A DNA stretch of 64,000 nucleotides, taken from positions 62,001-126,000 of IMG/VR virus record IMGVR_UViG_3300043399_000297. One strand, 5' to 3'. Of the stretch, positions 1 to 30,604 are shown one piece after another (position 1 is the stretch's first letter; each line of letters begins with the position of its first letter). A program made the position numbers and the translations under genes. Under the pieces are notes generated by a model that was not told where the DNA came from, searched no databases, and saw only the letters and a program-made list of their open reading frames with translations. This DNA comes from a virus.

Positions 1-1
1 A

Positions 2-610
2 GCCCCGGATACAGATTGGAAGTTGCAGAATGATTGGCAAGTATACGAAGCTAGTCCATATGAATATACTATAAAACTAGAAGCTGATATGTATATTCCT
101 AGATCAATCGATTATTGGTGGGATATATTAAAGGATAGAGATTTAGTAGTATCAACCACTATTAGAAATTTTAAACAAGAGATTTCAGATATCAAAGCAT
201 ATCGCAGATTTATTATTGATAATAATTTGCCGGATACATATAATGCAATTACATATTTTCGTAAAAGCGAATTAGCAGAAAAATTCTTTAAGATTGTTAG
301 AGATGTGTTTGAGAATTGGGATGTATATAGAAGTTCTCTCAAATGCAATACAAATGAATTATGCACTACAGACTGGGCTTACGCTATTGCTAGTCATATA
401 TTAGGAGTTGAGAATACTACATTGCCTCCGTTTAAAGAAATGTCTATGGTTCATATGAAGCAGTTTATTAATAGTCTTCCAACTGAGAATTGGACAGATA
501 TATTCATTCACGAAATATTACCGCACACGTTTAGAATCAATACAATTGCACAGATGTATCCGGTTCATTACCATATCAAGAGTTTTGCTAAGGAAGCATT
601 AAATGGATGA
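2..610 (+). CDS. Glycosyltransferase-like protein, 5'-truncated by window edge
   Basis: The reading frame is open from base 2, so the gene begins outside the window; the first in-frame TTG at 23 is probably not the start. About 202 residues are visible. The stretch KLEADMYIP near the start resembles the acidic DXD-type segment of GT-A nucleotide-sugar transferases, and the aromatic segment around SIDYWWDIL is typical of such folds. The next gene overlaps its end by 8 bases, so the two are probably co-transcribed. It sits beside an SDR and another GT-A-like gene. The family assignment is inference from motif shape; an unrelated phage protein is possible. Confidence 0.5.
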   Translation, partial: APDTDWKLQNDWQVYEASPYEYTIKLEADMYIPRSIDYWWDILKDRDLVVSTTIRNFKQEISDIKAYRRFIIDNNLPDTYNAITYFRKSELAEKFFKIVRDVFENWDVYRSSLKCNTNELCTTDWAYAIASHILGVENTTLPPFKEMSMVHMKQFINSLPTENWTDIFIHEILPHTFRINTIAQMYPVHYHIKSFAKEALNG

Positions 611-1656: not shown

Positions 1657-1661
1657 AGAGA

Positions 1662-1669: not shown

Positions 1670-1689
1670 ATTTACTATGTCAGAAGTAA

Positions 1690-1697: not shown

Positions 1698-1702
1698 ATG
1701 CA

Positions 1703-2647
1703 ATGGACGACATTATTGATATTGCAGACTTAGACGTAATATACCTAAGCTATGACGAACCTCAAAAAGAAGAATTCTGGCTCAAGATTAAGAATATGGT
1801 GCCTTGGGCTGTCAGAGTAGATGGTGTTAAGGGAAGTGACGCTGCACATAAAGCAGCAGGGGAAGCATCATCTACTGAGAGATTCATTCTCATTGACGGT
1901 GACAACTTGCCCGATGAGAACTTCTTTAATTTACAATTAGACTTTACCGATAAAGACCCTAACTACAAGTTAGCGCAGTATCGTTGGAGAGCAGTCAATG
2001 CTATCAACGGGCTACGTTATGGCAACGGCGGTATGTCGTCCTGGACAAAAACTTATGTTGCCAATATGAAGACCCACGAAAGTAGTGACGGTAGTGATGC
2101 CACGACGGTTGACTTTTGTATGGATTCTTCAGATAATCTATACTGGGCAATGCACGATTGCTACTCTACTACGTATCCAAACTACACTCCCTTCCAAGCG
2201 TGGAGAGCAGGATTCCGTGAAGGTGTCAAGATGGTGCTTGATCGGGGTGCAAGGCCCAGTATAGACGATTTCAAAGAGAGAGTTGCTGGCCGCAATTTAG
2301 ATAATCTTAAAGTTTGGTTTAATGTCGGCGCAGACGCAGAGAACGGCTACTGGGCCATATATGGCGCAAGGCTCGGAACGTATATGACTATGCTTACTGA
2401 CTGGGACTATTTAGAAGTAGCGGACTTTGATACATTTGTTAAATTGTGGGAAGACCATAGATATAATTATCCTGAACAAGAAATTGAACGTCTTGGCAGA
2501 GAATTAGATAATAAATTAGGTCTCCCCGTCTGCTTACTCAGCCCGGAACAATCAAAGTTCTTCAAGCATTTTTACAACGCTGACAAACACAATCAAGGAC
2601 CATTGGTCAAGGAGATGGATGTGATTCGCCGCCTAGAGGGATGGTGA
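1703..2647 (+). CDS. GT-A-like protein, paralogue of the C-terminal domain of the 1515-residue repeat protein
   Basis: A 314-residue protein. The chosen ATG at 1703 follows a late box by 5 bases; the frame is open further upstream, but that part overlaps the divergent SDR gene. Near residues 15-75 it reads VIYLSYDE, then VRVDGVKG, AAHKAAGEAS and FILIDGDNLPDENFF. IDGDN looks like a GT-A DXD metal and nucleotide-sugar site. The same order (VFLSNGE, VRVDGVNG, AAYHKAAEAS, then FDFNW) occurs at the end of the protein encoded at 26057-30604, and both have a later W-R-x-x-FRE motif. Glycosyltransferase activity is inferred; this copy keeps the acidic motif that the repeat protein has lost. Confidence 0.65.
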   Translation: MDDIIDIADLDVIYLSYDEPQKEEFWLKIKNMVPWAVRVDGVKGSDAAHKAAGEASSTERFILIDGDNLPDENFFNLQLDFTDKDPNYKLAQYRWRAVNAINGLRYGNGGMSSWTKTYVANMKTHESSDGSDATTVDFCMDSSDNLYWAMHDCYSTTYPNYTPFQAWRAGFREGVKMVLDRGARPSIDDFKERVAGRNLDNLKVWFNVGADAENGYWAIYGARLGTYMTMLTDWDYLEVADFDTFVKLWEDHRYNYPEQEIERLGRELDNKLGLPVCLLSPEQSKFFKHFYNADKHNQGPLVKEMDVIRRLEGW

Positions 2648-2648
2648 G

Positions 2649-3224: not shown

Positions 3225-3256
3225 AGCTGATAGTCCTTTCACGACTGTTAGAGTAG

Positions 3257-4723
3257 TTGGGAATCCCCATTCCGCGAACTACAACTTTATTTATCTTAAA
3301 AGAGCAAAAATTGTCAGAATCAGAAACCGACAGAATAAAAAGAATTCGTGACTACATTGATGTAGATGCTACGCCTACATTCTGTTTGGCCAAGTGGCAT
3401 CACGTTACGATGTATCTACAGTCAGGTGAAACACATAGTTGTTATCACCCTCAGCCGCATAAGATTCCACTAGAAGAACTGAAGGATAATCCCTCAGCAT
3501 TACATAATACAATGCATAAGAAATTAGAGCGCCAGCAAATGCTTAATGGTGAGAAACCGGTAGGTTGTCAATATTGCTGGAATATAGAAAGTATGGGACC
3601 GGACTATATAAGTGATAGACACATTAGAAATAGTTCCATATTTACGGAGGAACGTTATGTTCATACATCTAAAGGTCCATGGGATCAAAATATTAATCCT
3701 GAGTATTTGGAAATTAATTTCGGTAATGAGTGTAATTTTAAGTGCGGGTATTGTCATCCAAAATACTCTACTCGATTTTATAAAGAGATTGAAGACTTCG
3801 GGCCGGTAACAACCGTAAAGAACCATCGCTGTGATATTGACTGGATGAAACTATACCAGCGCGAAGAAGAAAATCCATATGTTGATGCATTCTGGAAGTG
3901 GTGGCCTGAACTACGCAAGACATTGAACATTATGCGTATTACTGGAGGTGAACCTACATTACACAAATCAACTTGGCAGATTCTTGACAGTATCGACGAG
4001 GACCCAATGCCATGGTTAGAACTTAATATTAATAGTAATTTTGGTACTAAGCATATATTGTTTGAAAGATTAAGTGAAAAAGTAAACAAACTAGTTAGCG
4101 AAAAGAAAATTAGAAATTTCAAGATGTTCACATCAATGGACACTTGGGGACCTAGAGCAGAATATATTCGCACTGGGTTAGACTTAACCGTTTGGGAAAA
4201 GAACTTTCACACTTATATGTCAAAGACAGGCTGTCCGGTCACATTTATGATCACATTTAATATTTTCAGTGTGACAAGCTTTAAGAGTTTACTTGAGAAG
4301 TTTTTAGAGTGGCGAAAGTTATATGGCTGGTATGATATTGAACAGTTATCCTACCCTATGCATAGAGTAAGATTTGATACGCCATATCTTCGTGACCCGA
4401 TTCAATATGATATGAACATTCTTCCAAAGGAAGAATTTATGCCCTATATGTATGACTCATTAAAGTTCATAGAAGACAACCTAGATGACACACGCCCGGA
4501 TGCGTTCACTACAATTGAATATGAAAAGTTCAAGAGAGTGGTTGACTATATGGCAGAAACAGTGTATAATGATGAGAAGTTGATTGAAGGTCGTAGAGAC
4601 TTTTATAATTGGTTTAATGAGCTAGATGATCGTCGTGAAAACGATATGTTATCTGTGTTCCCTGAAATGATGGATTTTTATAGATTATGTCAGCAAGCAA
4701 ATTTGACAAACCCTTTCTCTTAA
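3257..4723 (+). CDS. Twitch-type radical SAM protein (copy 1)
   Basis: About 488 residues. It has an N-terminal twitch/SPASM-like zone (FCLAKWHHV...CYHP...CQYCWN) and then the radical SAM signature CNFKCGYC near residue 159, whose three cysteines bind the 4Fe-4S cluster that splits S-adenosylmethionine. RITGGEPTLH is the GGEP motif. It belongs to the N-terminal twitch-domain radical SAM family known from T4-like phages; the substrate is unknown. The start is uncertain: no ATG precedes the domain, TTG at 3257 is the longest option and TTG at 3311, with AAGAG upstream, is an alternative. Its end overlaps the next homologous gene by 37 bases. Confidence 0.85.
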   Translation: MGIPIPRTTTLFILKEQKLSESETDRIKRIRDYIDVDATPTFCLAKWHHVTMYLQSGETHSCYHPQPHKIPLEELKDNPSALHNTMHKKLERQQMLNGEKPVGCQYCWNIESMGPDYISDRHIRNSSIFTEERYVHTSKGPWDQNINPEYLEINFGNECNFKCGYCHPKYSTRFYKEIEDFGPVTTVKNHRCDIDWMKLYQREEENPYVDAFWKWWPELRKTLNIMRITGGEPTLHKSTWQILDSIDEDPMPWLELNINSNFGTKHILFERLSEKVNKLVSEKKIRNFKMFTSMDTWGPRAEYIRTGLDLTVWEKNFHTYMSKTGCPVTFMITFNIFSVTSFKSLLEKFLEWRKLYGWYDIEQLSYPMHRVRFDTPYLRDPIQYDMNILPKEEFMPYMYDSLKFIEDNLDDTRPDAFTTIEYEKFKRVVDYMAETVYNDEKLIEGRRDFYNWFNELDDRRENDMLSVFPEMMDFYRLCQQANLTNPFS

Positions 4724-5931
4724 ACCAAAGTAAAACATTTTGTATGTTCCCGTGGTTGCATCTTAACGCTACACCTAAAGGAGATGTCTACCCTTGCTGC
4801 TCAAATAATTATTCAGAACCGTTCGGAAGTACTAAAGAGAATACTCTAGAGGAAATTTTTAACAGTCCAAAGATGAAGGAATTACGTTTGGATATGCTAA
4901 ACGAGCGTAAAAATAATATTTGTGACTTTTGTTATAAGCACGAAGAAGCAGGACCTCATAGTTTTAGAAGCTATAGTAAAACACATTTCAGTAAATATTT
5001 TGATGAAGTTGTTCCTACCACATTAGAGGACGGAACCGTCCCTGATTTCAAGATGCGGTATTTTGATATTCGCTTTAGTAATATTTGCAATTTTAAATGT
5101 CGTACTTGCGGTAGTGAATTCAGTAGTCAGTGGGCTACTGATATGCAAAAGCACTTTGATCCCTCACATCCAATTGTGATTCACGTTGATGATAATACAG
5201 GGAACGTTCTTGATGAGGTGTTAGAACACATTGATTATATTGATTTGGCATATTTCGCCGGCGGCGAACCCCTCATCACTGACGAGCATTATACAATGCT
5301 TGAAGCGATGATACGCAAGGGACGAACAGATATCACACTTAGGTATAATACTAATGCTAGTAATATCAAATATAAGAAACACGATATTCTAGAATTGTGG
5401 AAACACTTTAATAAGATAGAATTGAGTTGCAGCATTGACCATTATGGATCTAGGGCAGAATATATAAGAAAGGGAACCGATTGGGGTAAGGTAGAAAGTA
5501 ACCTTTTAACTTTTAGAGAACTAGACTACATTGATTTTCAAATTAATACAGTATTATCTATTTTTAACGTATTAACGTTAGATGATTTCTACACATATCT
5601 TTATTCAAAGGATATTATTAGAAAGCACGACTGGTACCATAGTTTATATCTAGCTGTTCATCCCAATTATTATTGTGCTAAAAGTTTACCCAAAGAACTT
5701 AAACTAATTGCTACCCAAAAACTTAACAGTTGGTATAATAATCATAAAGACGATGAAACTTGTGTTCCTAGATTAATGACTGAGGGTAATTCTTTTATGA
5801 ATGAAAGCCACAACTGGAGTCAATATAAAAATAAATTTTTTATGCATACTAACAGCATAGACAATATAAGAGGCGAAAGTTTGTGGGAAGTATTTCCCGA
5901 GTTAAGTAAATTACAAGATTTAGAGGAATAG
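4687..5931 (+). CDS. Twitch-type radical SAM protein (copy 2)
   Basis: A 414-residue paralogue of its two neighbours. The N-terminal twitch domain shows FCMFPWLHLNATPKGDVYPCC and CDFCYKHE, whose cysteines probably ligate an auxiliary Fe-S cluster. The radical SAM core follows with CNFKCRTCG near residues 135-143 and the GGEP motif AGGEPL. The ATG lies inside the previous gene, so translation is probably coupled. Three tandem paralogues suggest different substrates or a multi-step modification. Substrate and product are unknown. Confidence 0.9.
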   Translation: MSASKFDKPFLLNQSKTFCMFPWLHLNATPKGDVYPCCSNNYSEPFGSTKENTLEEIFNSPKMKELRLDMLNERKNNICDFCYKHEEAGPHSFRSYSKTHFSKYFDEVVPTTLEDGTVPDFKMRYFDIRFSNICNFKCRTCGSEFSSQWATDMQKHFDPSHPIVIHVDDNTGNVLDEVLEHIDYIDLAYFAGGEPLITDEHYTMLEAMIRKGRTDITLRYNTNASNIKYKKHDILELWKHFNKIELSCSIDHYGSRAEYIRKGTDWGKVESNLLTFRELDYIDFQINTVLSIFNVLTLDDFYTYLYSKDIIRKHDWYHSLYLAVHPNYYCAKSLPKELKLIATQKLNSWYNNHKDDETCVPRLMTEGNSFMNESHNWSQYKNKFFMHTNSIDNIRGESLWEVFPELSKLQDLEE

Positions 5932-5934
5932 ATA

Positions 5935-7212
5935 ATGCCTAATAGAGAGCAAGTAGAAAATCTAGTAAAGAACGGTAAGCATTTCTGTGTATTACCCTGG
6001 GTACATTTTCACGCCTGGCCTGACTCAAGAGTGATGCCTTGTTGTGTTGCTGATAGTGAATTGCCTGTTGCTAAGATTGAAGACGACCAATCAATTATTG
6101 ATTTAATGAACAGCGATAGGTATAAGGAAATACGCGCTGCTATGCTAAACGACGAACCGGTCAATGAGTGTAAGCGTTGTTTTGATATTGAGTTGATGGG
6201 CACCTGGACTATGAGACAGTCGCATAATACTAGACGAGGACTAGAGTATGTTGACTATATCACTAATAATACGCAAGAAGATGGGCATTTGAGTGAATTT
6301 GAGATGAAGTATATGGATATACGCTTTAGTAATCTATGTAATTTCAAGTGCCGTAGCTGCGGTCCTGCTTGCTCTTCCCAACACGCACAAGAATATATAG
6401 AAAATCAGGGCAAGGATAAGTATAAACAATATTTTAATACTGATAAAGTCATTATCAACAATAATGAAGAACAAAAGTTTATGCTCAAACTTAAGCCTTA
6501 TTTGGCCGATGTATTAGAAGTTTATTTCGCAGGTGGCGAAATTATCATTACTCCTGAGCATTATGAATGTCTTGACTATTGGATAGAGAACGGACAAGCT
6601 GATACTATTGAACTTAACTATACAACCAACTTTAGTACACTACACGGATACAAAGATAAAAATCTACTAGAATACTGGAAGAAGTTTAAGAATGTTCAAG
6701 TTTGGGCAAGTCTTGATGCTCACGGGCCTTTAGCAGAATGTATTCGCAAGGGTTCAGATTGGGAAAGAATCGAACAAAATATTAAGGATTTGAAAGCAGA
6801 AGTACCGCACGTTCAATTTCAAATTACTCCCACAATTAGTATTTGGAATATCTTTAAGTTTCCTGATTTCTTTGACTATATGGTACAAAACAACTATATT
6901 TCTACGGATTCTTGTCCTAGATTTAATCTGTTAACAAGCCCTTGGTTTGCTAATATTATGATTATGCCTAAGCACGTAAAGAATAGATTGATTGAATTAT
7001 ATAGAGTATACGCAAACAAGTATGGAAAACATAACGTAGATTTGCACAATGGATTCAAGATGATCATTTATAATCTTAGTGTGGGTGAAGAAAATAAGGG
7101 CGGCATTCAAGAATTTATGAAGTACAATGAAGAAATGGACAAGTGGAGAAAAGAAAAGTTCGAAGACCTTGTCCCAGAAATTAAGGAAGTTTATGAGTGG
7201 GCACAATCCTAA
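5935..7212 (+). CDS. Twitch-type radical SAM protein (copy 3)
   Basis: 425 residues, starting three bases after the stop of copy 2. The N terminus has FCVLPWVHFHAWPDSRVMPCC and CKRCFD (auxiliary cluster cysteines), then CNFKCRSCG near residue 139. The GGEP position reads AGGEI, a departure from the usual proline that contacts the SAM amino group. Much of the body aligns by eye with copy 2 (KMRYFDIRFSN versus KYMDIRFSN). The function is inferred only at the level of radical SAM chemistry. Confidence 0.9.
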   Translation: MPNREQVENLVKNGKHFCVLPWVHFHAWPDSRVMPCCVADSELPVAKIEDDQSIIDLMNSDRYKEIRAAMLNDEPVNECKRCFDIELMGTWTMRQSHNTRRGLEYVDYITNNTQEDGHLSEFEMKYMDIRFSNLCNFKCRSCGPACSSQHAQEYIENQGKDKYKQYFNTDKVIINNNEEQKFMLKLKPYLADVLEVYFAGGEIIITPEHYECLDYWIENGQADTIELNYTTNFSTLHGYKDKNLLEYWKKFKNVQVWASLDAHGPLAECIRKGSDWERIEQNIKDLKAEVPHVQFQITPTISIWNIFKFPDFFDYMVQNNYISTDSCPRFNLLTSPWFANIMIMPKHVKNRLIELYRVYANKYGKHNVDLHNGFKMIIYNLSVGEENKGGIQEFMKYNEEMDKWRKEKFEDLVPEIKEVYEWAQS

Positions 7213-7378
7213 TTGTAGACAGATTCTATTAGTAGAAAAGGTTCGGCAATTTGTTACTGAATACCAACATCACTACAATTTAGATCAAGTATACGGAATA
7301 GATATTGAAGCGTCATTGTTTCTTTTTGTAAAAGAATGTATTAAGGAATATAATGAAGCGAAACCTAATCGCAATTGA
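7193..7378 (+). CDS. Hypothetical protein, 61 residues, bridging two radical SAM genes
   Basis: The ATG at 7193 overlaps the end of radical SAM copy 3 by 20 bases, and the stop lies 26 bases inside the next radical SAM gene. The frame is open further upstream, but that is within the preceding gene. The predicted peptide is helical and charged (VEKVRQFVTEYQHHY...LFLFVKECIKEYNEA). Such a small helical protein could be a peptide substrate or an adaptor for the radical SAM enzymes; that is speculation from position and size only. Confidence 0.5.
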   Translation: MSGHNPNCRQILLVEKVRQFVTEYQHHYNLDQVYGIDIEASLFLFVKECIKEYNEAKPNRN

Positions 7379-8312
7379 AGCACCAGAACCCTATTTAGCG
7401 GTTACTTGGCAAGTCAACAATTTCTGCAACTTTCGTTGCAGTTATTGTAACCCTGGTAACTGGGGCGGCGCCAATCCCAACAATGGCAATCTTGCTATCT
7501 ATATCAATAATCTAAAAGACATTATCGACAAATATACTAGTATAGGATACAAGAATTTTAAGTTCTTTTTTAGTGGTGGTGAACCTACAGCTTGGCGCAA
7601 CTTTATTCCCATATGTGAGTTTCTAAAAGAATATGTAACTTGTACATTAGCAGTCAATACCAATCTAAGTAGACCAATTGAGTGGTGGCAAAAGCATTAT
7701 CATCTGTTTGATGATATCGTTGCCAGCTTTCACGTAGAGTTTACAAAGAAAGAACGATATGAGGAAAATAACATCTTCTTGTGCGATAAGGTAAATTATC
7801 TGTCAACTAAGATGCTGTTGCACGATGAAAGATTTTGGGAAGTCGTAGAGTTTGGCAACTATCTAAAAACAGTGATGCCAAACTACTTTATTGAATGGAC
7901 ACCACTGTTTGATGAGATGACAACTAATGCAGGTCCGTGGAACTATACTGACCCATTGAAAGAACAGTTCATACACGAACATACTATCGAAATTAAGCAG
8001 TCATTACCTAAACCCAACAAAGCCGCAGAAACGTCTAGTTATAATAGATATGACAATGGTGACATTTGCCCTACTAATTCTAATCAGGTTATTGTCGATG
8101 GGGACAATTTCTTCACTGGTTGGAAATGTAATGTGGGAGATAGCATTTTCATAAGCCCAAACGGAGATGTATCGTTGGCAAGCTGCGGTCAAGGTGGTAT
8201 AGTAGGGCATATATTAGAAGATATCAGTCAGGTTGGCCCAAAACAAATAATCTGTCATAAAGATCATTGTCATTGCGGAACAGATATTATCATACCTAAA
8301 TTTATCGATTAA
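7353..8312 (+). CDS. Radical SAM protein, short form
   Basis: 319 residues with the cluster motif CNFRCSYC near residues 24-31, then FFFSGGEPT (GGEP motif). It lacks the N-terminal twitch zone of the three upstream paralogues. A C-terminal group of cysteines (WKC, ASCGQGG, CHKDHCHCG) looks like a SPASM/twitch-type auxiliary cluster region. The arrangement resembles peptide- or small-molecule-modifying radical SAM enzymes. The gene starts within the preceding small ORF, so expression is coupled. Substrate unknown. Confidence 0.88.
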   Translation: MKRNLIAIEAPEPYLAVTWQVNNFCNFRCSYCNPGNWGGANPNNGNLAIYINNLKDIIDKYTSIGYKNFKFFFSGGEPTAWRNFIPICEFLKEYVTCTLAVNTNLSRPIEWWQKHYHLFDDIVASFHVEFTKKERYEENNIFLCDKVNYLSTKMLLHDERFWEVVEFGNYLKTVMPNYFIEWTPLFDEMTTNAGPWNYTDPLKEQFIHEHTIEIKQSLPKPNKAAETSSYNRYDNGDICPTNSNQVIVDGDNFFTGWKCNVGDSIFISPNGDVSLASCGQGGIVGHILEDISQVGPKQIICHKDHCHCGTDIIIPKFID

Positions 8313-20190: not shown

Positions 20191-21165
20191 ATGCTTAGTA
20201 AAAATGAATGGGATCCCTTGAAAACTGTAATCGTGGGTATTGCAGATGATGCAAAAATTCCAAGAACTAATATAGGACTTAGAACAGTAAATTATGCCGA
20301 CTTAACTTTTAGTGAATACCTAAGGGTTAAGCACGGAAGATATCCAGATCAAGTTATAGAGGAAGCCAATGAAGACCTATCTATTCTATGTGAATTTTTA
20401 CGAGAACAAGATATTCAAGTTCTGCGCCCTCAAAGCAACGATCCTGACTATTATAACTATTGCCCTAGAGATACTGTATTAGTACACGATGATATTATAC
20501 TTGCAACTCCTACTGCACTATCCTGCAGGAGAGAGGAGTGGCGAGCAAATAAAGCACACTTTGATATAGACAGATTGATAGTAGCTCCTAAACCCGAACA
20601 CAGTGATACTTATAACTCAGGATGTGTAGGAAACCCTGATATATTAGCACTACGAGAATATGAACCAGTCTTTGATGCTGCAAACATTCTTAGATGTAAC
20701 GATGATTTGTTTTATCTCGTGAGCAATACCGGTAATAAGAAGGGTGCAGAATATTTACAAGAGATTGTAGGACCTAGCAAGCGAGTACACACTATTGAAA
20801 ACGTGTATAGCTATATTCATCTTGATAGCACTATAGCATTCTTGCGTGAAGGATTGGTGTTATTGAACCCTTCGCGAATTAAAAGCATAGATCAACTTCC
20901 TGAAGTATTACATAATTGGGATGTAATCTGGGCTCCTGAGCCATTCGACATTGGCCACTATCCGGGATACTGTAATGCAAGTAAATGGGTGAGCGTGAAC
21001 CTACTATCAGTTAATCCTAAGCTAGTTGTTCTAGAGGAACATCAACACGCCCTGTGTAAAGAATTAGAAAAATATAACATTGATTCGGCTATGCTTCCAA
21101 TGCGACACGCTCGTACTCTGGGAGGATGTTTTCACTGCGTTACCTTAGATTTAGAACGCAGATAA
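20191..21165 (+). CDS. Amidinotransferase family protein (glycine/inosamine amidinotransferase-like)
   Basis: 324 residues. It begins NEWDPLKTVIVG, the classic start of arginine:glycine and inosamine-phosphate amidinotransferases. Visible catalytic elements are PRDTVLV, the aspartate in EPVFDAANIL, the histidine in YIHLDST, and the nucleophile Cys316 in GGCFHCVT. Members move an amidino group from arginine to an amine, making guanidino compounds; streptomycin and guanidinoacetate pathways use them. The position next to PLP-enzyme and carbamoyltransferase genes suggests a guanidinylated, carbamoylated product. The substrate is inferred only in class. Confidence 0.9.
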   Translation: MLSKNEWDPLKTVIVGIADDAKIPRTNIGLRTVNYADLTFSEYLRVKHGRYPDQVIEEANEDLSILCEFLREQDIQVLRPQSNDPDYYNYCPRDTVLVHDDIILATPTALSCRREEWRANKAHFDIDRLIVAPKPEHSDTYNSGCVGNPDILALREYEPVFDAANILRCNDDLFYLVSNTGNKKGAEYLQEIVGPSKRVHTIENVYSYIHLDSTIAFLREGLVLLNPSRIKSIDQLPEVLHNWDVIWAPEPFDIGHYPGYCNASKWVSVNLLSVNPKLVVLEEHQHALCKELEKYNIDSAMLPMRHARTLGGCFHCVTLDLERR

Positions 21166-21186: not shown

Positions 21187-22908
21187 ATGAAACAAGCAAA
21201 AGTTGAAGTTGGTCATATGGGTAGATATTGGAACGATGATTTCAAAACTTTGCCATATGTGAAACAGGGTGTAACTAAAGAAGAAGTCGAAAACTGGGAG
21301 CGGTTGGGATATTCTGAAAATTTTGTAAAAAGCTACACTGGATCAATGTATGATCACAGTAATGTGATGCCTGAATGGATAGATAGATTTGAAAATGCGT
21401 TTGGTTTATATAAGCAATCCTACACGTTTTACTGTATGCAAACTTGTGAAATTATGCCGACGCACAGTGATCACTTCTCTACCTATTGCAAAATAAATAA
21501 CACCACGCCTGATAAAGTCTATAGGGCAATACTGATGTTAGAAGATTGGAAACCCGGCCACTATTTTGAACTCGACGGTGTTGGATATGTTAACTGGAAG
21601 GCAGGAGACTGGTTCAAATGGAGAGGAGATGTTCCGCATGCCGCAAGCAACATAGGAATAGAGCCTAGGTATACGCTACAAGTTACTGGTCTTGATTTTA
21701 GAGTCGGTCAGTTAAACAGACTGTTTTCATTTAATATACCGGACGTTGAGGAGGAGGATAATCATCCCTTACTAAAAGATATATCTAATAAGATACAAGA
21801 GTCTCATTATATGGTGTATTTAAATAACGGATATATAACTGAGCTTGATTCTATTAACCACTCTCAGGATGTTCAAGAATTATTGAATAAAGAAGGATTG
21901 CATATCTATATGTATGAACCGCTGTGTAGTTATAGAATGCAGCAGGATAATCATACTCAAGGGTTTTATTCAGAATTTGATGATATATCACCTTATGATT
22001 TGCAAGCTGAAGAACTTGATAGCATATATGTTTATGTTAGAAGAAATAATTTGAACAATGTTACTGTTCATACAGGTGATTATAATGCAGGAGATTGGTA
22101 TAAAGATTACACTGATCGAATGAATTTGATATGTGACGATTTGTTTTTGAAAACACAAAAAACAATAGTTAACATACGGGAAACACCTAGTAATGAATTC
22201 ATTTATAATTTTATATGTTTAAACTGGCGCTTTACTAAACATAGACAATTAGTTGCTACTTATCTTGCTGGGCAGTCAGGACATTTGAGTTGGCATTTCA
22301 AATCAAAGTTTGATGTACTAGGAAAAGATTTGTTTTTTGATTTAGCCGAGTGGAAAGAGAAATATCCCACAATATATCAGAGGTTAGAACAAGGATGTGA
22401 CTATATTAGTCAGCATTCACCGTTATGCCTAGACAAAAGATCAAATCGTGCAATAGAAGTGTTAGATCCTAAATATGTAGAAATGTGGCCAGATTCAAAT
22501 GAATATGAACCAGGTGTCACGCCTTCACTGTACAATCAGGTATCCAATAACTTGTCCGATTATTATTTCCACGTGTTTTTGGATGTAGTAAACGAAACTC
22601 GGTTTGCACAACCGACTGCTAACATCAGTGAGAAGACTTTCCAGCCTATGCAATATTTTAAACCCTTTGTGCTAGTTGCCCCACCTAAGTCCCTTGAATA
22701 CGTCAAATCACTCGGTTTTAAAACCTTCAGTGATTTTTGGGATGAGAGCTATGATAACGAGTTTGATCACGGGGAGAGATTAGTTAAGATTTTTCAATTA
22801 TTAGATAAGTTGTTTGCAATGTCTAATCAAGAGCAACGTGACCTTTATAATAAGATGTTGCCTGTATTGCAACATAATTTTGACAGGTATAAGGATTTTG
22901 TGTTATGA
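21187..22908 (+). CDS. 2OG-Fe(II) oxygenase-like domain fused to EKT..P glycosyltransferase-like domain
   Basis: 573 residues. The N-terminal part, roughly residues 1-185, has PTHSDHFSTY, which supplies HxD-type metal ligands. It is followed by GHYFELDG, WRGDVPHAASNIG with a distal histidine, and PRYTLQVTG with an arginine suited to bind 2-oxoglutarate. This matches the double-stranded beta-helix of asparaginyl/prolyl hydroxylase-like enzymes. The C-terminal part has LNWRFTKHR and ISEKTFQPMQYFKPFVLVA...VKSLGFKTF...DESYD, the island's glycosyltransferase-like signatures. The fusion implies hydroxylation and glycosylation in one chain. It overlaps the next gene by 4 bases. Confidence 0.7.
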   Translation: MKQAKVEVGHMGRYWNDDFKTLPYVKQGVTKEEVENWERLGYSENFVKSYTGSMYDHSNVMPEWIDRFENAFGLYKQSYTFYCMQTCEIMPTHSDHFSTYCKINNTTPDKVYRAILMLEDWKPGHYFELDGVGYVNWKAGDWFKWRGDVPHAASNIGIEPRYTLQVTGLDFRVGQLNRLFSFNIPDVEEEDNHPLLKDISNKIQESHYMVYLNNGYITELDSINHSQDVQELLNKEGLHIYMYEPLCSYRMQQDNHTQGFYSEFDDISPYDLQAEELDSIYVYVRRNNLNNVTVHTGDYNAGDWYKDYTDRMNLICDDLFLKTQKTIVNIRETPSNEFIYNFICLNWRFTKHRQLVATYLAGQSGHLSWHFKSKFDVLGKDLFFDLAEWKEKYPTIYQRLEQGCDYISQHSPLCLDKRSNRAIEVLDPKYVEMWPDSNEYEPGVTPSLYNQVSNNLSDYYFHVFLDVVNETRFAQPTANISEKTFQPMQYFKPFVLVAPPKSLEYVKSLGFKTFSDFWDESYDNEFDHGERLVKIFQLLDKLFAMSNQEQRDLYNKMLPVLQHNFDRYKDFVL

Positions 22909-23651
22909 AAAAGATAGGTTTGGTAGCTGGATGCAGCCATTCGGCAGGCTCAGAAATGGATGGAACAGAGGATAGTTATTATAATCGTCAAAATGCATTT
23001 GGCTCATTATTGTGCAAAAGCCTAGGGTACGAACCAATAAACATTGCATTGGGCGGCGCGGCAAATAGCGGCATCGCAAGAAGTATTTTGTTGTGGTTTG
23101 ATGAGTTTTATAAAAAAGATGAGATGGATGTGTTTGTTGTTATCGGGTGGACTGAAAGCTCAAGACTTGAAGTTCCGGCAGAATCTAGGCTTTGTTATTA
23201 CAACGAAGCTAATAGCAGTGCAGATTGGTATGACGCTTCTGCTAACTATTTTCATAGAATAAACTTTGGGTGGATGGGAGCAACCGAAGAAGAACAGATT
23301 ATGATTCCTATATATCAAAACTTTATGGCAAATAATCCTTCAATTCTAGAAAATTGGTCAGCAACTAGCGTTTTGCAAATTCAATACTTTTTAAAATCGT
23401 TGAATGTTAAGTATGTAATGAGCAATACTATGCATATGTTTCAACCAGACAATGATTTTACTAAGTTCTTGATTAGTCAAATAGATAAAACAAGATATTT
23501 TAATTTACTTACTGATCAAAATATGTCGTTCTATTGGAAGTATGCAAATCTAGGATATGAAAATAAGAAAGCTACATATTGGCATCACGATGAAGAACCT
23601 CACCGGTTGTATGCAGAAGAACTTCTTAAGTTTCTAGAAGACGTAGAATGA
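22905..23651 (+). CDS. SGNH hydrolase-like protein (copy 2)
   Basis: 248 residues starting with LVAGCSHSAG (nucleophile serine block). NIALGGAANSG follows (glycine/asparagine blocks), then VVIGWTESSR, and HHDEEPHRLYAEEL near the C terminus as a block V-like D..H. It overlaps the following SGNH gene by 4 bases, and the two may form a heteromer or act on different acyl positions. Substrate unknown. Confidence 0.7.
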   Translation: MKKIGLVAGCSHSAGSEMDGTEDSYYNRQNAFGSLLCKSLGYEPINIALGGAANSGIARSILLWFDEFYKKDEMDVFVVIGWTESSRLEVPAESRLCYYNEANSSADWYDASANYFHRINFGWMGATEEEQIMIPIYQNFMANNPSILENWSATSVLQIQYFLKSLNVKYVMSNTMHMFQPDNDFTKFLISQIDKTRYFNLLTDQNMSFYWKYANLGYENKKATYWHHDEEPHRLYAEELLKFLEDVE

Positions 23652-24478
23652 TTTTGTACTGTAATGGAGACAGTTTTGTAGCGGGAGTCGAATTGGGGGA
23701 TGATATTTTACCTGAATATCCCGGCACACAAGACTTTGATGCTCCCACTAGTGTAATAAATCTGGCAAAAGAGTGGATATTAAAAACACAGAATCACACA
23801 CATCCGTGGGCGGCTATGCGACAAGAGCTATTCACACAAATTTTTGATATCGAACGCAGTAGAGCTTTCCCTAACAAGATTAGTAAATTACTTAATCTTC
23901 CTGTAATCAATAACGCATTAGGAGGTTCTAGTATGGATAGAATAGCAAGAACTACTATTGATAGCTTAATTGAATTAAAGAGAGAAAATGAGGATATTAT
24001 TGCTATAATAGGAATAACTGAGGCTAGTAGATCAGAACTTGCTAACTTCAATGAGTGTTACAATAACGAGTATTCAACTAGATGGGTAGATATGTCATTG
24101 GGTTATGTTAATGAAGGGGTAAAGCCACTAGAAGCAGTCAGAAACTACAAACTGCGTTATGAAACGGATTATCACTGTCAAATAAATTTCTACAAGAATG
24201 TTATTCTTTTACAAGATTTCTGTAAAGTAAATCATATTCCCTTGTTTTGGGTAAACCCGGGTTTTACTAATCTATCTAACTCGCACCCTGATACTGATTT
24301 GCTAAATATGAAGAATTATGCAAATCTTACTTGTATTGTAGATATGGTAGAGATTGCAAGAAAAATTAATGTTAACGTTAGGTGTCCATCGGGGCATCAT
24401 TCGGAAGTAGTTCACGATGAAGTGGCAAAAATAATTGCCTCGATATTACAGGAGAGCAGCTATGTTCAAATTCATTAA
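23648..24478 (+). CDS. SGNH hydrolase-like protein (copy 3)
   Basis: 276 residues. YCNGDSFVAGVE near the N terminus is a GDS(L)-type block I, NNALGGSSMDR is a block II/III equivalent and IIGITEASRSE parallels WTESSR of its neighbour, confirming that the two are paralogues. The C terminus ends with HHSEVVHDEVA. It shares its 3' end with a small basic ORF that precedes the carbamoyltransferase gene. Confidence 0.68.
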   Translation: MILYCNGDSFVAGVELGDDILPEYPGTQDFDAPTSVINLAKEWILKTQNHTHPWAAMRQELFTQIFDIERSRAFPNKISKLLNLPVINNALGGSSMDRIARTTIDSLIELKRENEDIIAIIGITEASRSELANFNECYNNEYSTRWVDMSLGYVNEGVKPLEAVRNYKLRYETDYHCQINFYKNVILLQDFCKVNHIPLFWVNPGFTNLSNSHPDTDLLNMKNYANLTCIVDMVEIARKINVNVRCPSGHHSEVVHDEVAKIIASILQESSYVQIH

Positions 24479-24566
24479 AAAAATTGTCAACAAGATTAAA
24501 CGAGAGATTACATACCGCAAGCGTGTCAAAGAACTACGCAAAAGAGATCCGTTCATTTACAAATGA
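24462..24566 (+). CDS. Small basic protein, 34 residues, coupled to the carbamoyltransferase gene
   Basis: A short ORF with ATG at 24462 and a good Shine-Dalgarno (GGAGAG) 5-6 bases upstream. It overlaps the preceding SGNH gene by 17 bases and the following gene by ATGA. The peptide begins MFKFIKKIVNKIKREITYRK and ends KRDPFIYK; about 40 percent of residues are lysine or arginine and it should form an amphipathic helix. It may be a membrane- or RNA-binding peptide or a partner of the carbamoyltransferase. Coding status is supported by the ribosome site and tight packing only. Confidence 0.6.
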   Translation: MFKFIKKIVNKIKREITYRKRVKELRKRDPFIYK

Positions 24567-26047
24567 GTTATCTAGGCATTAGCTGCGGCTTTCACGATGC
24601 TGCTGTCAGTGTAGTTGACAGTGTTGGCAATATCACCTTCGCCGGACATAGCGAACGTTATAGTAAGAAAAAACACGATGAAAACTTATCTGTTGATCTA
24701 GTCAAAGATGCACTAACGCATTCATATGGCTCTATGGAACTACACTATTATGAGAGACCATACATTAAGGCTATCAGGCAATGGCAAGCTGGACAAGATA
24801 TCGGGCCATTGAACGTTAAAGATATAATTGGCTCAGATGTATTAGATACTCTAAAAATGTATGATAGTAAGATTCATACACACAATCATCATCTTTGTCA
24901 CGCCGCAGCCGGCTTTCAAACAAGCCCATTCAATGATGCTACTGTAGTTGTCATTGATGCGATAGGGGAATTAGATACTATTAGTATTTGGCACGCCACT
25001 TATAATAAGAAAGGTAGAGCGAAGTATAAGAAGCTTTGGGGAAAGAAATATCCTAATTCAATAGGACTAATGTATTCAGCTATGACACAGAGAGTAGGTC
25101 TTAGACCATTAGACGAAGAATACATATTGATGGGTATGGCAGCATATGGCAAACCTAAATATTTTGATTTATTAAATGATACCTTTTTGTCTAATCCTGC
25201 GTATATTGATTTTAGGCAGAACTTGCATACAGGAGTAGATCAAAGTTTCTTGTCCGGTGCAGATGATATGGATATTGCTAGTTCTGCGCAAGCGTTGGCA
25301 GAAGTATTGATTCGAATTGTATTGTTAAAGGCGATGCATCTGGGAAGAAGTAGTAACCTAGTATATAGCGGAGGAGTAGCACTCAACTGTGCAGCCAATA
25401 GATATCTAGGAAGCTATTTCAAAAATATGTGGATTATGCCTAACCCAGGTGATGCAGGCAATAGTCTTGGTGCAGCAGCATTAGGGTACGGTAAGAAATT
25501 AAATTGGACTAATGCATTCTTGGGTTATGAAATCAAAGGCGATTATCCGGTTGACAATCTCATAAAAGAGTTGCATAGTAATAAGATCGTAGGAGTAGCT
25601 AGTGGTAGAGCAGAGTTCGGTCCAAGAGCATTGGGTAATCGTAGTCTGTTAGCAGACCCACGCGGCCCTAATATTAAGGATAAGGTTAATGAGATTAAGC
25701 GAAGACAAAAGTTCAGACCATTTGCGCCGATCGTTTTGGAGGAGTTGGTTACTGATTACTTTGATATGCCTACTGGTTGGACTGACTCTAGGTATATGCA
25801 AGTCGTCGCTATTTGTAGGCATCCTGGTTTATTTCCTGCTATCGTTCACGCTGACGGGACTAGTCGTGTTCAGACTGTTCCTAAAGATGAATCAGGAATC
25901 AGAAAGCTTTTAGAAGTTTGGTACGAACAGACCGGCTGCCCTATGCTTCTTAATACATCACTGAATATTCGCGGTGAACCCATGGTCAACGATAGAAATG
26001 ATGCTGACCGCTTTGAAAAACTCTATGGAGTAAAAGTATATTCATAA
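24563..26047 (+). CDS. Carbamoyltransferase (NodU/CmcH/TobZ family)
   Basis: 494 residues. It begins YLGISCGFHDAAVSVVD, the Kae1-like ATP-binding start of the family, with HNHHLCHAAAGFQTSPF (metal-binding histidines), VVIDAIGE and, in the C-terminal domain, GRAEFGPRALGNRSLLADPR. The family makes carbamoyl adenylate from carbamoyl phosphate and ATP and transfers the carbamoyl group to a hydroxyl of a sugar or natural product. The start codon overlaps the stop of the small basic ORF. It probably completes the decoration pathway of the island. Confidence 0.94.
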   Translation: MSYLGISCGFHDAAVSVVDSVGNITFAGHSERYSKKKHDENLSVDLVKDALTHSYGSMELHYYERPYIKAIRQWQAGQDIGPLNVKDIIGSDVLDTLKMYDSKIHTHNHHLCHAAAGFQTSPFNDATVVVIDAIGELDTISIWHATYNKKGRAKYKKLWGKKYPNSIGLMYSAMTQRVGLRPLDEEYILMGMAAYGKPKYFDLLNDTFLSNPAYIDFRQNLHTGVDQSFLSGADDMDIASSAQALAEVLIRIVLLKAMHLGRSSNLVYSGGVALNCAANRYLGSYFKNMWIMPNPGDAGNSLGAAALGYGKKLNWTNAFLGYEIKGDYPVDNLIKELHSNKIVGVASGRAEFGPRALGNRSLLADPRGPNIKDKVNEIKRRQKFRPFAPIVLEELVTDYFDMPTGWTDSRYMQVVAICRHPGLFPAIVHADGTSRVQTVPKDESGIRKLLEVWYEQTGCPMLLNTSLNIRGEPMVNDRNDADRFEKLYGVKVYS

Positions 26048-26056: not shown

Positions 26057-29000
26057 ATGCTACGTGATGTATTTTACTATGGACAGAAACCAAACGTTCA
26101 TCCGAGAGAACAGTTTGCTAAAGATTTAGAAGATGCTAGGAATAAAGCGACTACTCGTGACTTTTGGATAATCAACGAATTCTGCGATTATCGTAATTTT
26201 AATTGGGATTTCGATTTTGAGTTTCTCCCAGATGAAGATGTATGGGCAGAAGATCATAACAATGTATGGCCTAGCCAACATCAAAAAGATTCAGGAACCT
26301 GGTTATGCCCCAAACAGCATAGTGACTTAATTATATATCGGTGTGATGTTGATCCTATCTGGCGCAAGAACGAAAAGCAAAGTGTTAATTGGGTTGAATT
26401 AGATTTAATTGACCATACTAAGTTTGACTTTAGTTGGCATCCTGATCCTACTGATCCTCCTTATATCTATAAGTGGGGATGCAAATATTATCCTGCTCAA
26501 ATCAAGCACGTATTAGAATATCGTGTTCCGGGCTCAACTCAAGAAAAATTTATGGATATTTCTGCGGAACTTTTGCCTGACTGGGATAAATGGGTAATAC
26601 CTGACAGTATAAATAAATCCGGGTTTGATTTTTCTTGGAGACCCAGTCCTCTTGACCCGCCGCTTATATATGAATTTGGAACGCAATGGCAAAAGGATGG
26701 TGGACCGATTTATGTTGCTAGTGGAGCAACTAAAAGGAAGTATATCAATGATCAAAAAGCTACGAGGATTGCTTCAAACGAAAATTGGACGATTCCTGAC
26801 AATATTGATATTGCTGGATTTGATTTATCATGGCATCCAGATAATATTAGTCCTCCTTATATCTATGTATTTGCTACTCAGTGGGCACTCAGTGGCGGAC
26901 CTGTTTACACAGTTCCTGGCGCAACTGAAATCAAATATGTAGACGCTCAGGTAGCTACTGCACTCCCCGATAAAACAAATTGGATATACAACGAAGAAGA
27001 AATTGACGTTTCTAGTTTTGACTTCAGTTGGCATCCCTTTTCAGGGGACGACCCTTTCATCTATCAGTTTGGTACTCAATGGCAAAAGACTGGAGGTCCG
27101 AAATATATTACTCCGGGCGCGGATGAATCAAGCCCGATCAAGTATGTTGATACTCGTATTATCAAAGCTACTCACCTGCCTGACAAAAACAAGTTCATTG
27201 TATTGGGAAACAATGCTGTTCAGGAGTTTGATTATAGTTGGCATCCAGATGATACAGAAGATCCATATATCTATGTGTTTGGCAATCAATGGCATACAGC
27301 AGAAGTTATGCCAACCATTGAATACAGGATGACTGGCGCAACCCAATACAAGTATATAAATGATACTATTGCTATTCTTGGTCCTAATATGACACATTGG
27401 TTTTACGACTCAAACGAGATAGATGTTTCTGATTTTGATTTTAGTTGGTGTCCTAATCCCGGAGAACCTGAATTAATTTATGAGTTTGCTACTCAGTGGC
27501 AAAAGACTGGTGGTCCTAGATATATTGTGCCGGGTGCTACTGACGTAAAGTATTTAGACTTTCAAAAAGCAAGAGCATTGCCTTCTGAAAAAAATTGGAC
27601 AGTTCCTAGCAATATTGATGCAACGTTGTTTGACTTCAGTTGGCATCCTGATGCGACTAGCCCTCCTTATATCTATGTATTTGCTACTCAGTGGGCACTC
27701 AGTGGCGGACCTATATATACTGTACCGAACGCAACCGAATACAAATATGTCGATGAACAGATAGCTACTGCATTACCTGATATGACCAATTGGGTATATG
27801 ACGAAACAAAGATTGATGTTGAAAGTTTTGACTTCAGTTGGCATCCATATGTTGAAGATCAGCCATATATCTATCAGTTCGGTACACAATGGTGGCCAAC
27901 TGGTGGACCAAAATATATTGCACCGGGGGCAACAAGCGCAAGCCCAGTAAAATACATTGATACACGTATCATTAAAGCTAATACAATACCGGGTCTTGAA
28001 AATTGGGAAATTCCGGACGAGGTAGATAAAAGTAAGTTTGATTTTACTTGGATCCCTCATCCAGAAGACCCTCCCTATATATATGTGTTCGGCAATCAGT
28101 GGTTTAGTGCAGAAAAAATGCCCACTGTAAGATATATTGTTGAAGGTGCAACTGAAATTAAGTATGTTCGCGATATCATTGCTACAATAAAACCAAACAA
28201 AGACAATTGGACAATAGCTAATAATATAGTAGTGAAAGAGTTTGATTTTAGTTGGATACCAGATCCTCATTCTCCTCCTTATATCTATGTGTTCGGTAAT
28301 CAATGGTATTCAGCAGAAGAAATGTCAACTGTAGAATATCACACTCTTGGTGCTACTGAAAGAAAATATATTAATGATATTAGGGTTGTGTTAGACAAAA
28401 ACTTTACGAATTGGGAAATACCAAAAGGAATCGATGTTTCGCGATTTGATTTTAGTTGGATCCCTCATCCTAAAGCACCTCCATATATCTACCAGTTCGG
28501 CACCTTAAAGGATCCGTTGGATGGACCTAGATATATTACTCCAGGCAACAATGGAGAAATAGTTCGTGTACCAAGAATAGAACTTGATGAAATTGAATTT
28601 ATGCCTATCAATAGATATTATATTGAAACTACGTTGGATGACTTGATTATTAAACATCCAGATGAAATGTTCTGGGCGCTGAATAAAGAAATAGATTATT
28701 CTACATTTAACTTTGACTGGACCCCTTCATTGGACCAAGCAGATTATATTCAGGTATTCGGTCAAAGCTCAAGTATAAAAACTCAAACTTATTTGATCAA
28801 TTCTACATTGTGGACTAAAGGGTTGCGAGAGTTTAATTATGTAGAAGAACAAGAGAAAAAGACTGTTTCTGATTTGGATATCTTTTTTGTGGACAAAGGA
28901 AACTCAGAAGCTAATGAAAGATTCCATATACTAAAAAACAAGTTCGGCTCAAAGATTCAAAAGACACGATATCTCAACAGTTGGGTAGACACAATTAATC

Positions 29001-30604
29001 GCTGTATTAATCGTGCTACAAGTAATCTAATTTGGATTCTTAACAGCGAATTAGATTATTCTAACTTTGACTTTACTTATTACCCTAACCCTTGGCAGAT
29101 GAAGATGGTTCACGTATTTGGAACACAACATAGTCATTGGGGAACAACTTTTATGGTCAATCGCGAAACGTTTCCCGAAGATACAAAGTATATTAAAATC
29201 ATTGAACATTTGTCAAATCTAAACTTTGTCAAGGACATTAGAGCCAAAGCAACTGAATGTGTATATGATATTGTCATTATAGACCACAATAATATAGAAA
29301 GCTTATCAGTTACAGAAACGATGAAAAGAGTTTGGGCTCCTAATAGGAATGTTACTACTATAAAATATGAGGATAGTTATCTAAACACAATTCGTAACTA
29401 TGTAAAGAAGTTACCTGACAAAAAAGAACATTATCTTTGGATTTGCTCAAGCGTATGCGACTATACTAACTTTGACTTTAGTTATATATGTGATCCCTTT
29501 GCTAAAGATAATCTACACGTATTTCCCAGCAATAATCAAAAGTTTGGGGACACGTTCTTGTTGGATGTAAACAAGACTAAAGAAATCATAGATGATCTAG
29601 AAAAACTTGAAGATTATAATAAGGTGAGCTATAACAGTGCTACGAAGGCGAATAGATTGTTGCCACCAATCATCGTCACAGAAAATGATACGCATACCAA
29701 TTCATTAGAAACTATTACAGGATTTCCTTATGCAAGACTGATTACTAAGGACAACTTGAATGTTGAAGTTCCTGAGATTGAACCTATGAATCTATGGTCA
29801 CCTGAAACTAAGAACATTCAGGTACTAAGCACCGGTGCAACTCATATTGTAGCTCCTATAGAAATTAAAGATTATGTCAAGAAAGAACTATACGAATATC
29901 CATATATTAAACGCGCTCCAAAGTTAGCATTGTCTAATCCTATTGATATCGTGTTCTTGAGCAACGGTGAAATTGGTGCAGAAGAAAACTATGAACATCT
30001 ATTGAATATCACTAAGAACTTGAAGAACCGTGTAGTGAGAGTAGATGGGGTGAACGGTCGTGTTGCAGCATATCATAAAGCAGCAGAAGCTAGCGAAACG
30101 CCGTGGTTCTTCACGGTGTTTGCTAAGTTGAAGGTTAGTCCCAAATTTGATTTTAACTGGCAACCTGACAGAATGCAAATCCCCAAGCACTACATCTTCC
30201 ACGCAAAGAATCCTGTCAATGGGTTGACATATGGTCACCAGGCAATGATTGCATACAACAAAAAGCTTACTCTTGCTAATGAGGGATATGGACTAGACTT
30301 TACATTAGATGACGAACACGAGGTTGTGCCACTTATCTCTGGTACCGCACATTATAATACAGATGAATTTTCTACTTGGAGAACAGCATTTAGAGAGGTA
30401 ATCAAGCTTAAAGCAGACATTAGTGATATAGCCAAAGATAGACTTGATGTATGGTTGAATAAAGCAGAAGGTGACTTTGCTCAATATAGCATTAAGGGTG
30501 CATTGGATGCTGATGAATATTATGATGAAGTCAATGGCGAGTTTGACAAACTCAAGCTAAGCTATGAATGGGATTGGCTACGCAAAAAGTTTGGGGAAAT
30601 GTGA
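26057..30604 (+). CDS. Giant tandem-repeat protein with FDFSW-P-PPYIY-FGTQW repeats and degenerate GT-A-like C terminus
   Basis: 1515 residues, the largest gene in the window. After a leading unit it contains about eleven well-conserved repeats of 65-70 residues, centred on FDFSWHP, PPYIY and FGTQW, followed by YxxPGATExKY and LPDxxNW. Then come three or four diverged units (for example LNSELDYSNFDF). The final roughly 200 residues match the GT-A-like protein at 1703-2647. Groups of four repeats are themselves duplicated with an 810-base period, and a 51-base DNA stretch is identical at 26852 and 27662. No signal peptide is visible. It may be a scaffold or a binding protein that evolved by repeating part of a glycosyltransferase fold. 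Confidence 0.85.
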   Translation: MLRDVFYYGQKPNVHPREQFAKDLEDARNKATTRDFWIINEFCDYRNFNWDFDFEFLPDEDVWAEDHNNVWPSQHQKDSGTWLCPKQHSDLIIYRCDVDPIWRKNEKQSVNWVELDLIDHTKFDFSWHPDPTDPPYIYKWGCKYYPAQIKHVLEYRVPGSTQEKFMDISAELLPDWDKWVIPDSINKSGFDFSWRPSPLDPPLIYEFGTQWQKDGGPIYVASGATKRKYINDQKATRIASNENWTIPDNIDIAGFDLSWHPDNISPPYIYVFATQWALSGGPVYTVPGATEIKYVDAQVATALPDKTNWIYNEEEIDVSSFDFSWHPFSGDDPFIYQFGTQWQKTGGPKYITPGADESSPIKYVDTRIIKATHLPDKNKFIVLGNNAVQEFDYSWHPDDTEDPYIYVFGNQWHTAEVMPTIEYRMTGATQYKYINDTIAILGPNMTHWFYDSNEIDVSDFDFSWCPNPGEPELIYEFATQWQKTGGPRYIVPGATDVKYLDFQKARALPSEKNWTVPSNIDATLFDFSWHPDATSPPYIYVFATQWALSGGPIYTVPNATEYKYVDEQIATALPDMTNWVYDETKIDVESFDFSWHPYVEDQPYIYQFGTQWWPTGGPKYIAPGATSASPVKYIDTRIIKANTIPGLENWEIPDEVDKSKFDFTWIPHPEDPPYIYVFGNQWFSAEKMPTVRYIVEGATEIKYVRDIIATIKPNKDNWTIANNIVVKEFDFSWIPDPHSPPYIYVFGNQWYSAEEMSTVEYHTLGATERKYINDIRVVLDKNFTNWEIPKGIDVSRFDFSWIPHPKAPPYIYQFGTLKDPLDGPRYITPGNNGEIVRVPRIELDEIEFMPINRYYIETTLDDLIIKHPDEMFWALNKEIDYSTFNFDWTPSLDQADYIQVFGQSSSIKTQTYLINSTLWTKGLREFNYVEEQEKKTVSDLDIFFVDKGNSEANERFHILKNKFGSKIQKTRYLNSWVDTINRCINRATSNLIWILNSELDYSNFDFTYYPNPWQMKMVHVFGTQHSHWGTTFMVNRETFPEDTKYIKIIEHLSNLNFVKDIRAKATECVYDIVIIDHNNIESLSVTETMKRVWAPNRNVTTIKYEDSYLNTIRNYVKKLPDKKEHYLWICSSVCDYTNFDFSYICDPFAKDNLHVFPSNNQKFGDTFLLDVNKTKEIIDDLEKLEDYNKVSYNSATKANRLLPPIIVTENDTHTNSLETITGFPYARLITKDNLNVEVPEIEPMNLWSPETKNIQVLSTGATHIVAPIEIKDYVKKELYEYPYIKRAPKLALSNPIDIVFLSNGEIGAEENYEHLLNITKNLKNRVVRVDGVNGRVAAYHKAAEASETPWFFTVFAKLKVSPKFDFNWQPDRMQIPKHYIFHAKNPVNGLTYGHQAMIAYNKKLTLANEGYGLDFTLDDEHEVVPLISGTAHYNTDEFSTWRTAFREVIKLKADISDIAKDRLDVWLNKAEGDFAQYSIKGALDADEYYDEVNGEFDKLKLSYEWDWLRKKFGEM
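26852..27712 (+). repeat. Higher-order internal repeat (810-base period) in the giant gene
   Basis: The bases 26852-26902 recur identically at 27662-27712. The flanking protein repeats also match in order: units with VFATQWALSGG, then QFGTQW..TGG with an inserted S-P segment, then VFGNQW. This shows that a block of four repeats was duplicated recently or homogenised by recombination. Confidence 0.85.

Follow-up and report, generated by a model that had tools for sequence, protein, structure and literature searches.

What does a phage make with six radical S-adenosylmethionine (SAM) proteins, an amidinotransferase and a carbamoyltransferase encoded in one run of genes behind its tail fibres? 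The question is raised by a 64,000-nucleotide stretch of DNA, here called the window (G000:C1:62001-126000), from IMG/VR virus record IMGVR_UViG_3300043399_000297, which comprises 244,022 bases and probably belongs to a large, T4-like environmental phage. A preliminary description, made from the letters of the DNA, had treated window positions 1-30604 as one coupled biosynthetic run. The open reading frame (ORF) list supports such a run from 3257 to 30604, where every large ORF is read from the plus strand and neighbours either overlap slightly or leave short gaps; positions 1-3242, with two minus-strand genes, fall outside it. Family searches, profiles and AlphaFold2 models compared by Foldseek bear out the gene inventory of the island overall, with small edits. 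The island is real, conserved and exchangeable, and, on a slender balance of probability, we read it as a host-recognition-side island that makes a guanidinylated, carbamoylated and perhaps C-methylated sugar for the virion.

At the core of the island stand an amidinotransferase, a compact DegT-family protein expected to use pyridoxal phosphate (PLP), and an oxygenase domain dependent on 2-oxoglutarate (2OG) and Fe(II) (Table 1). The first two had been named in the preliminary description and both held up. As a profile, the amidinotransferase family ranks StrB1 (PDB 1BWD, 298 bits) ahead of glycine amidinotransferase (AGAT; 202 bits, E 1e-58), HsvA and SxtG (180 bits); the single sequence has no Pfam match. 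A putative catalytic Asp-His-Cys triad (D162, H210, C316), whose role in the phage enzyme is assigned by comparison with AGAT and StrB1, is invariant in 22 amidinotransferases including that of Campylobacter phage CP220. In a phylogenetic tree, 29 phage amidinotransferases form a group of their own (support 100/100) outside the streptomycete StrB1 clade, and bacterial relatives, at ~29-47% identity, include S. griseus, S. bluensis, S. humidus and cyanobacteria. The neighbourhoods of bacterial StrB1 homologues were left out of scoring because ORF calls are unreliable on high-GC Streptomyces loci.

The DegT-family protein matches sugar aminotransferases at about half their length and without their usual C-terminal domain: its relatives measure ~194-215 residues, against 359-445 in solved relatives and ~360-390 for the full two-domain length. 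The ring aspartate (D83) and the PLP lysine (K107) are invariant (alignment A2). A compact DegT protein of 214 residues also occurs in the cultured Flavobacterium phage immuto (L201, 6971-7615), inside a glycosyltransferase cluster in which no amidinotransferase was detected. For the third enzyme, described earlier as an oxygenase-like fusion, AlphaFold2 and Foldseek yield a 2OG fold: the model is a double-stranded beta-helix that matches 2OG oxygenases, P4H- and AspH-like folds among them, and the HxD..H motif and the 2OG-binding Arg are conserved in the alignment, with H, D, H and R all invariant.

These three genes are linked. We sampled IMG/VR loci by homology to the carbamoyltransferase (80 loci) and to the amidinotransferase (54 loci); a genome scan with the single amidinotransferase sequence found nothing, and all 54 came with the alignment as query. 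Since the loci are related, the co-occurrence counts that follow measure linkage and not independent events. Among 46 dereplicated amidinotransferase loci, the compact DegT gene lies within 6 kb in 45 and one of two oxygenase clusters in 43; two of the three loci outside these clusters (L016 and L051) carry cluster c65, read by eye as a 2OG oxygenase, and the third is CP220. Amidinotransferase and compact DegT were both present in 15 of the 80 carbamoyltransferase loci and both absent from the other 65, and 13 of those 15 have an oxygenase cluster. A further sample, of 51 compact-DegT loci with at least 4 kb on each side, separates the partners: the oxygenase model is found in all 37 loci that have the amidinotransferase but in only one of the 14 that do not, the remaining 13 carrying DegT alone. 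Thus, the oxygenase tracks the amidinotransferase and not DegT. We gave up an initial proposal that DegT receives its ketone from the 2OG enzyme, because 13 of the 14 compact-DegT loci without amidinotransferase are also without the oxygenase model. Far from being scattered in relatives, the wider set recurs in many phages in a near-constant order: UDP-glucose dehydrogenase (UGDH), B12-binding radical SAM protein, compact DegT, amidinotransferase, oxygenase fused to a domain with the EKT motif, SGNH-like protein, carbamoyltransferase and repeat protein. The commonest arrangement in the 80 loci (59 cases) has the repeat protein directly after the carbamoyltransferase. One contig assigned to a Chloroflexi metagenome-assembled genome (L187, 7989-12518), probably a phage contig binned there, holds an amidinotransferase, an EKT protein, a compact DegT and a carbamoyltransferase in one stretch, together with a protein read as another 2OG oxygenase.

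The island follows T4-type baseplate and tail-fibre genes on their 3' side. The genes upstream of it, on the same strand, encode the hub and the wedge of the baseplate (the wedge matching phrog_10646 at E 4e-257) as well as a giant structural protein and tail-fibre proteins, and downstream are those for an ATPase, a DUF2201 protein, the large terminase subunit and replication proteins. The giant protein, a virion structural protein of ~6.7 kaa (thousand amino acids), sits directly upstream of the tail-fibre genes at record positions 34949-55207, its ORF spanning a boundary between two fetched segments (L083, 14949-20000, and L084, 1-15207). The wedge gene is present in 24 of 24 related phage contigs searched whole, at ~30-54 kb from the locus in those whose positions were worked out from contig ranges. 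In eight of the 24, an amidinotransferase matches clearly and over its full length (E below 1e-100); one further match is diverged and one is weak. The contigs may be fragments, so that absence from them is not proof. The closest backbone, with a wedge 80% identical, has no amidinotransferase. A near-identity search of INPHARED returned zero matches. Content is exchanged at a fixed place on a constant backbone, and this hypervariable content beside tail fibres gives the locus the marks of a host-recognition cluster. Gene content, linkage, the fold or family of most enzymes and the conservation of key residues are likewise established here.

All six radical SAM proteins of the preliminary description (three twitch-type, one short, two B12-type) were recovered by family models, the three twitch proteins passing the curated cut-off of 170 bits for NF033640 (NCBIfam, N_Twi_rSAM). 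The twitch domain matches BtrN, an aminocyclitol enzyme of butirosin synthesis. The first B12 protein is nearest to the KedN5 C-methyltransferase family (NF033712, E 4e-71, under the model cut-off); the second is the most conserved of the aligned families, with a mean column identity of 73%, and has only partial INPHARED matches at 24-25% identity. The 244-kb record gives seven PF04055 matches; six lie inside the island, and the seventh resembles QueE. This probable QueE radical SAM gene (L090, 16514-17383; record 222514) has sugar genes within the neighbouring kilobases, read by eye as nucleotidyltransferase-like, glycosyltransferases and an epimerase, which suggests either a separate 7-deazaguanine locus or a second sugar locus.

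The nucleotide-sugar dehydrogenase (phrog_9148, E 6e-98) and the carbamoyltransferase were also correctly recognised from the start. The latter has both its N- and C-terminal domains above cut-off and is related to NovN (E 4e-43), TobZ (E 7e-32) and GdmN. For other families the earlier reading stood in part. Five copies of the EKT motif are indeed present, two of them in the tandem protein, while their identity as glycosyltransferases was not borne out in full: searches of the EKT domain against Pfam, PDB and GT10 gave no useful match, with zero matches to PF00852 (GT10) at E up to 10. UGDH-family proteins longer than 520 residues were counted in 23 loci, with the EKT motif present in seven of these, and a UGDH-named protein is among the Foldseek viral matches to the oxygenase-EKT model. 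Two of the three proposed SGNH proteins reach DUF6071 under its cut-off, and the third has no match. The 1515-residue protein that closes the island ends in a domain modelled with a pLDDT of 88, whose resemblance to GT-A enzymes is weak (TM-score at most 0.46). This domain has FAK where its relatives have DGD, and its repeats resemble the second halves of GT-A proteins, with the DxD motif lost; in the alignment, two relatives retain DGD, one encoded at window 1565 and one in L109. The L109 relative is the C-terminal domain of a different repeat protein and is of the same type. Repeat proteins in other phage loci range from 441 to 2784 residues, and that of the island has zero relatives in INPHARED.

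From these enzyme families we infer an order of reactions; the product, the acceptor and the purpose are inferred as well. The dehydrogenase would give a uronate-type sugar nucleotide, which radical SAM enzymes would oxidise and to which the two B12 enzymes may add a C-methyl group. Compact DegT would place an amine on a keto carbon, and the StrB1-like enzyme would then transfer an amidino group from arginine to that amine, yielding a guanidino sugar. The 2OG oxygenase would oxidise the same intermediate or its product; a step at or after guanidinylation is indicated because, in the compact-DegT sample, the oxygenase follows the amidinotransferase. The carbamoyltransferase would cap a hydroxyl, and the EKT and GT-A-like proteins would pass the finished sugar to its acceptor.

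Which acceptor? The preliminary description had offered a modified surface glycan or virion decoration, a DNA-base adduct or a small molecule. The first fits best, since the locus lies behind the tail-fibre genes and its content is swapped on a constant backbone; the other two found no support. Between virion and host surface, a virion protein is the likelier acceptor because tail-fibre genes adjoin the run and because neither a 19-residue hydrophobic window above threshold nor a recognisable flippase, polymerase or lipid-carrier transferase turned up in it. The single hydrophobic window near 1565 sits in an ORF extension that homologues are without. Candidates are a tail fibre or the ~6.7-kaa structural protein, and the effect would be altered adsorption or a shielded particle. 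A more specific version, in which tail fibres are coated with the guanidinylated, carbamoylated sugar by a streptomycin-like mini-pathway, half-size PLP aminotransferase included, that is swapped as a serotype switch, is doubtful.

Several points weigh against a virion sugar. Without its C-terminal domain, compact DegT is only a putative aminotransferase; no characterised glycosyltransferase matches the EKT domain in sequence, and the case for GT-A in the repeat protein is a weak one. A virion protein as acceptor is a prediction from context. Kinship among the loci makes the co-occurrence counts non-independent, and four of the 24 whole-searched contigs were picked for carrying the amidinotransferase. 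Finally, the authors who described pelagimyophage clusters take such clusters as modifying the host O-chain (PMC7029224). On that account the same chemistry would put the sugar on the O-antigen or capsule of the host, where it would alter the receptor and prevent superinfection, or hide the infected cell, and Iyer et al. prefer this explanation for glycosyltransferase clusters of cyanophages (PMC7824862). The lack of a hydrophobic segment and of recognisable flippase, polymerase or lipid-carrier functions in the run counts against it, though host enzymes could supply these, as does the placement of the locus with tail fibres. We regard the host surface as a less likely destination than the virion, and as rather unlikely overall.

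Less probable again is a direct action of the radical SAM enzymes, the oxygenase and the amidinotransferase on side chains of virion proteins, with sugars playing a minor part. Several twitch/SPASM radical SAM families are peptide modifiers, six such enzymes are many for a single sugar, and the P4H- and AspH-like folds among the Foldseek matches of the oxygenase fit this picture; the StrB1-like amidinotransferase, UGDH, the carbamoyltransferase, the UGDH-EKT fusions and the twitch match to BtrN all point instead to sugars. A diffusible aminoglycoside- or toxin-type small molecule in infected cells is more doubtful still. The enzymes are akin to those of streptomycin, butirosin and novobiocin pathways, and the possibility of a secondary metabolite has been put forward for jumbo cyanophages by Iyer et al. 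(PMC7824862). Against this, no exporter or resistance gene was recognised, putative transferases are many, and content is swapped at a tail-fibre locus that stays fixed. Least credible of all is hypermodification of bases in the phage DNA: phages do glycosylate DNA and the record has its probable QueE at 222.7 kb, yet island content differs between phages of similar backbone and no partner enzyme that modifies bases was noticed in the island. DNA modification by the island had also been considered through ThyA in the window, an ordinary thymidylate synthase in every match shown, and was dropped.

Loci of this type are known. The host-recognition clusters of pelagimyophages and cyanomyophages, as set out in the passages on them, resemble the island in being hypervariable within a T4-like structural region and in combining tail fibres, glycosyltransferases and radical SAM cassettes; the island differs in its amidinotransferase, compact DegT and 2OG core, its carbamoyltransferase and its long repeat protein, and those passages name no amidinotransferase (PMC7029224). 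A 2010 report on Campylobacter phages CP220 and CPt10 describes a block in which an amidinotransferase accompanies five radical SAM genes and which is exchanged as a unit, with metabolic fitness as the only function proposed (PMC2853527). As in the island, annotated sugar-transferase domains and a tail-fibre gene are nearby; the CP220/CPt10 amidinotransferase is just 24-26% identical to that of the island, and compact DegT and 2OG oxygenase were not found there by the clusters used. A similar set is in Synechococcus phage S-SCSM2R (PQ898602), where genes for a 195-residue DegT, an amidinotransferase (54%), a 2OG oxygenase, radical SAM and glycosyltransferases form one run; they were deposited as separate annotations, with no B12-binding radical SAM protein or UGDH annotated within the 27.6 kb viewed, and we found no description of the set in the literature searched. 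Jumbo cyanophages have sugar clusters with carbamoyltransferases and 2OG enzymes, of which the S-SSM6a sugar/amino-acid cluster, unlike the island, includes a halogenase; a term search of that paper found neither amidinotransferase nor radical SAM (PMC7824862). The streptomycin pair StsC/StrB1 shares with the island the combination of a DegT-family PLP aminotransferase and an amidinotransferase, StrB1 being the best structural relative, while the island has a compact PLP protein, a 2OG oxygenase and a sugar-transfer context, and no inositol-specific gene was recognised in it. The kinship with antibiotic pathways noted at the outset is thus sound at the level of enzymes (StrB1, BtrN, NovN/GdmN/TobZ), and the contrast drawn with ordinary phage genes was overstated, given the pelagimyophage and Campylobacter phage precedents. 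The core itself, found in many environmental phages, seems undescribed, the literature searched yielding no account of it.

Table 1. Features of the island and its left flank (window positions).
Feature	Position	Strand	Basis or remark
SDR gene	922-1656	minus	
GT-A-like protein, IDGDN (DxD-like) motif	1703..2647	+	alignment A3; related to C-terminal domain of 1515-aa protein
N_Twi radical SAM protein 1	3257..4723	+	NF033640 306 bits, cut-off 170
N_Twi radical SAM protein 2	4687..5931	+	NF033640 377 bits; PF13186, PF04055
N_Twi radical SAM protein 3	5935..7212	+	NF033640 357 bits
Short radical SAM protein	7353..8312	+	PF04055 33 bits (cut-off 29.5)
B12-binding radical SAM protein 1	8321..10243	+	PF02310, PF04055 above cut-off
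EKT-motif protein, putative glycosyltransferase	10240..11349	+	motif; no Pfam or PDB match
Tandem EKT-motif protein, two copies	11366..13447	+	motif
SGNH-like protein (GCSFT)	13428..14213	+	motif by eye only; no Pfam match
UDP-glucose/GDP-mannose dehydrogenase family enzyme	14241..15425	+	PF00984, PF03721; PDB UGDH E 5e-20
EKT-motif protein	15422..16570	+	motif; UGDH-EKT fusions known in some other phages
B12-binding radical SAM protein 2	16591..18855	+	PF02310, PF04055 above cut-off
Compact DegT-family PLP protein, 194 aa	18855..19439	+	PF01041; PDB perosamine synthase E 9e-10
DUF6492-like protein, possibly GT-A	19450..20190	+	PF20102 E 0.003, below cut-off
StrB1-like amidinotransferase	20191..21165	+	profile A1 against PDB: StrB1 1BWD E 1e-87
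2OG-Fe(II) oxygenase domain fused to EKT domain	21187..22908	+	AlphaFold2 mean pLDDT 84; Foldseek
SGNH-like protein	22905..23651	+	DUF6071 E 7e-4, below cut-off
SGNH-like protein (GDSFVAG)	23648..24478	+	DUF6071 E 6e-4, below cut-off
O-carbamoyltransferase (NodU/TobZ/NovN type)	24563..26047	+	PF16861 E 2e-48, PF02543
1515-aa protein, about ten clear FDFSW-type repeats and GT-A-like C-terminal domain	26057..30604	+	

Around the run, the mechanical ORF at 1565 probably has its true start near 1703, as judged from homologue L052. At the island edge, the second minus-strand gene (2649-3242) encodes an HNH-like protein with short repeats and has a look-alike at record position 233076 (L091); the two are possibly homing endonucleases. 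Beyond the island, at 31055-31499 on the plus strand, lies a permuted tmRNA of alphaproteobacterial type, which exceeds the gathering scores of Rfam RF04321 and RF01849 and has the ARAGORN tag ANDNDFAFELALAA; the alpha type is a hint that the host or the origin was alphaproteobacterial.

If the island does furnish the virion with a guanidinylated, carbamoylated sugar, phages would vary a surface by aminocyclitol-type chemistry known from antibiotic producers, and virus genes labelled glycine amidinotransferase may be sugar enzymes. An ocean survey treats virus-encoded creatine-pathway genes (PMC11360552). With ~200 residues, the compact DegT protein is a candidate for a minimal PLP enzyme, and the island as a whole provides a defined set of enzymes that can be assayed singly and that bears on the purpose of the radical SAM and amidinotransferase blocks noted beside phage tail genes in 2010.

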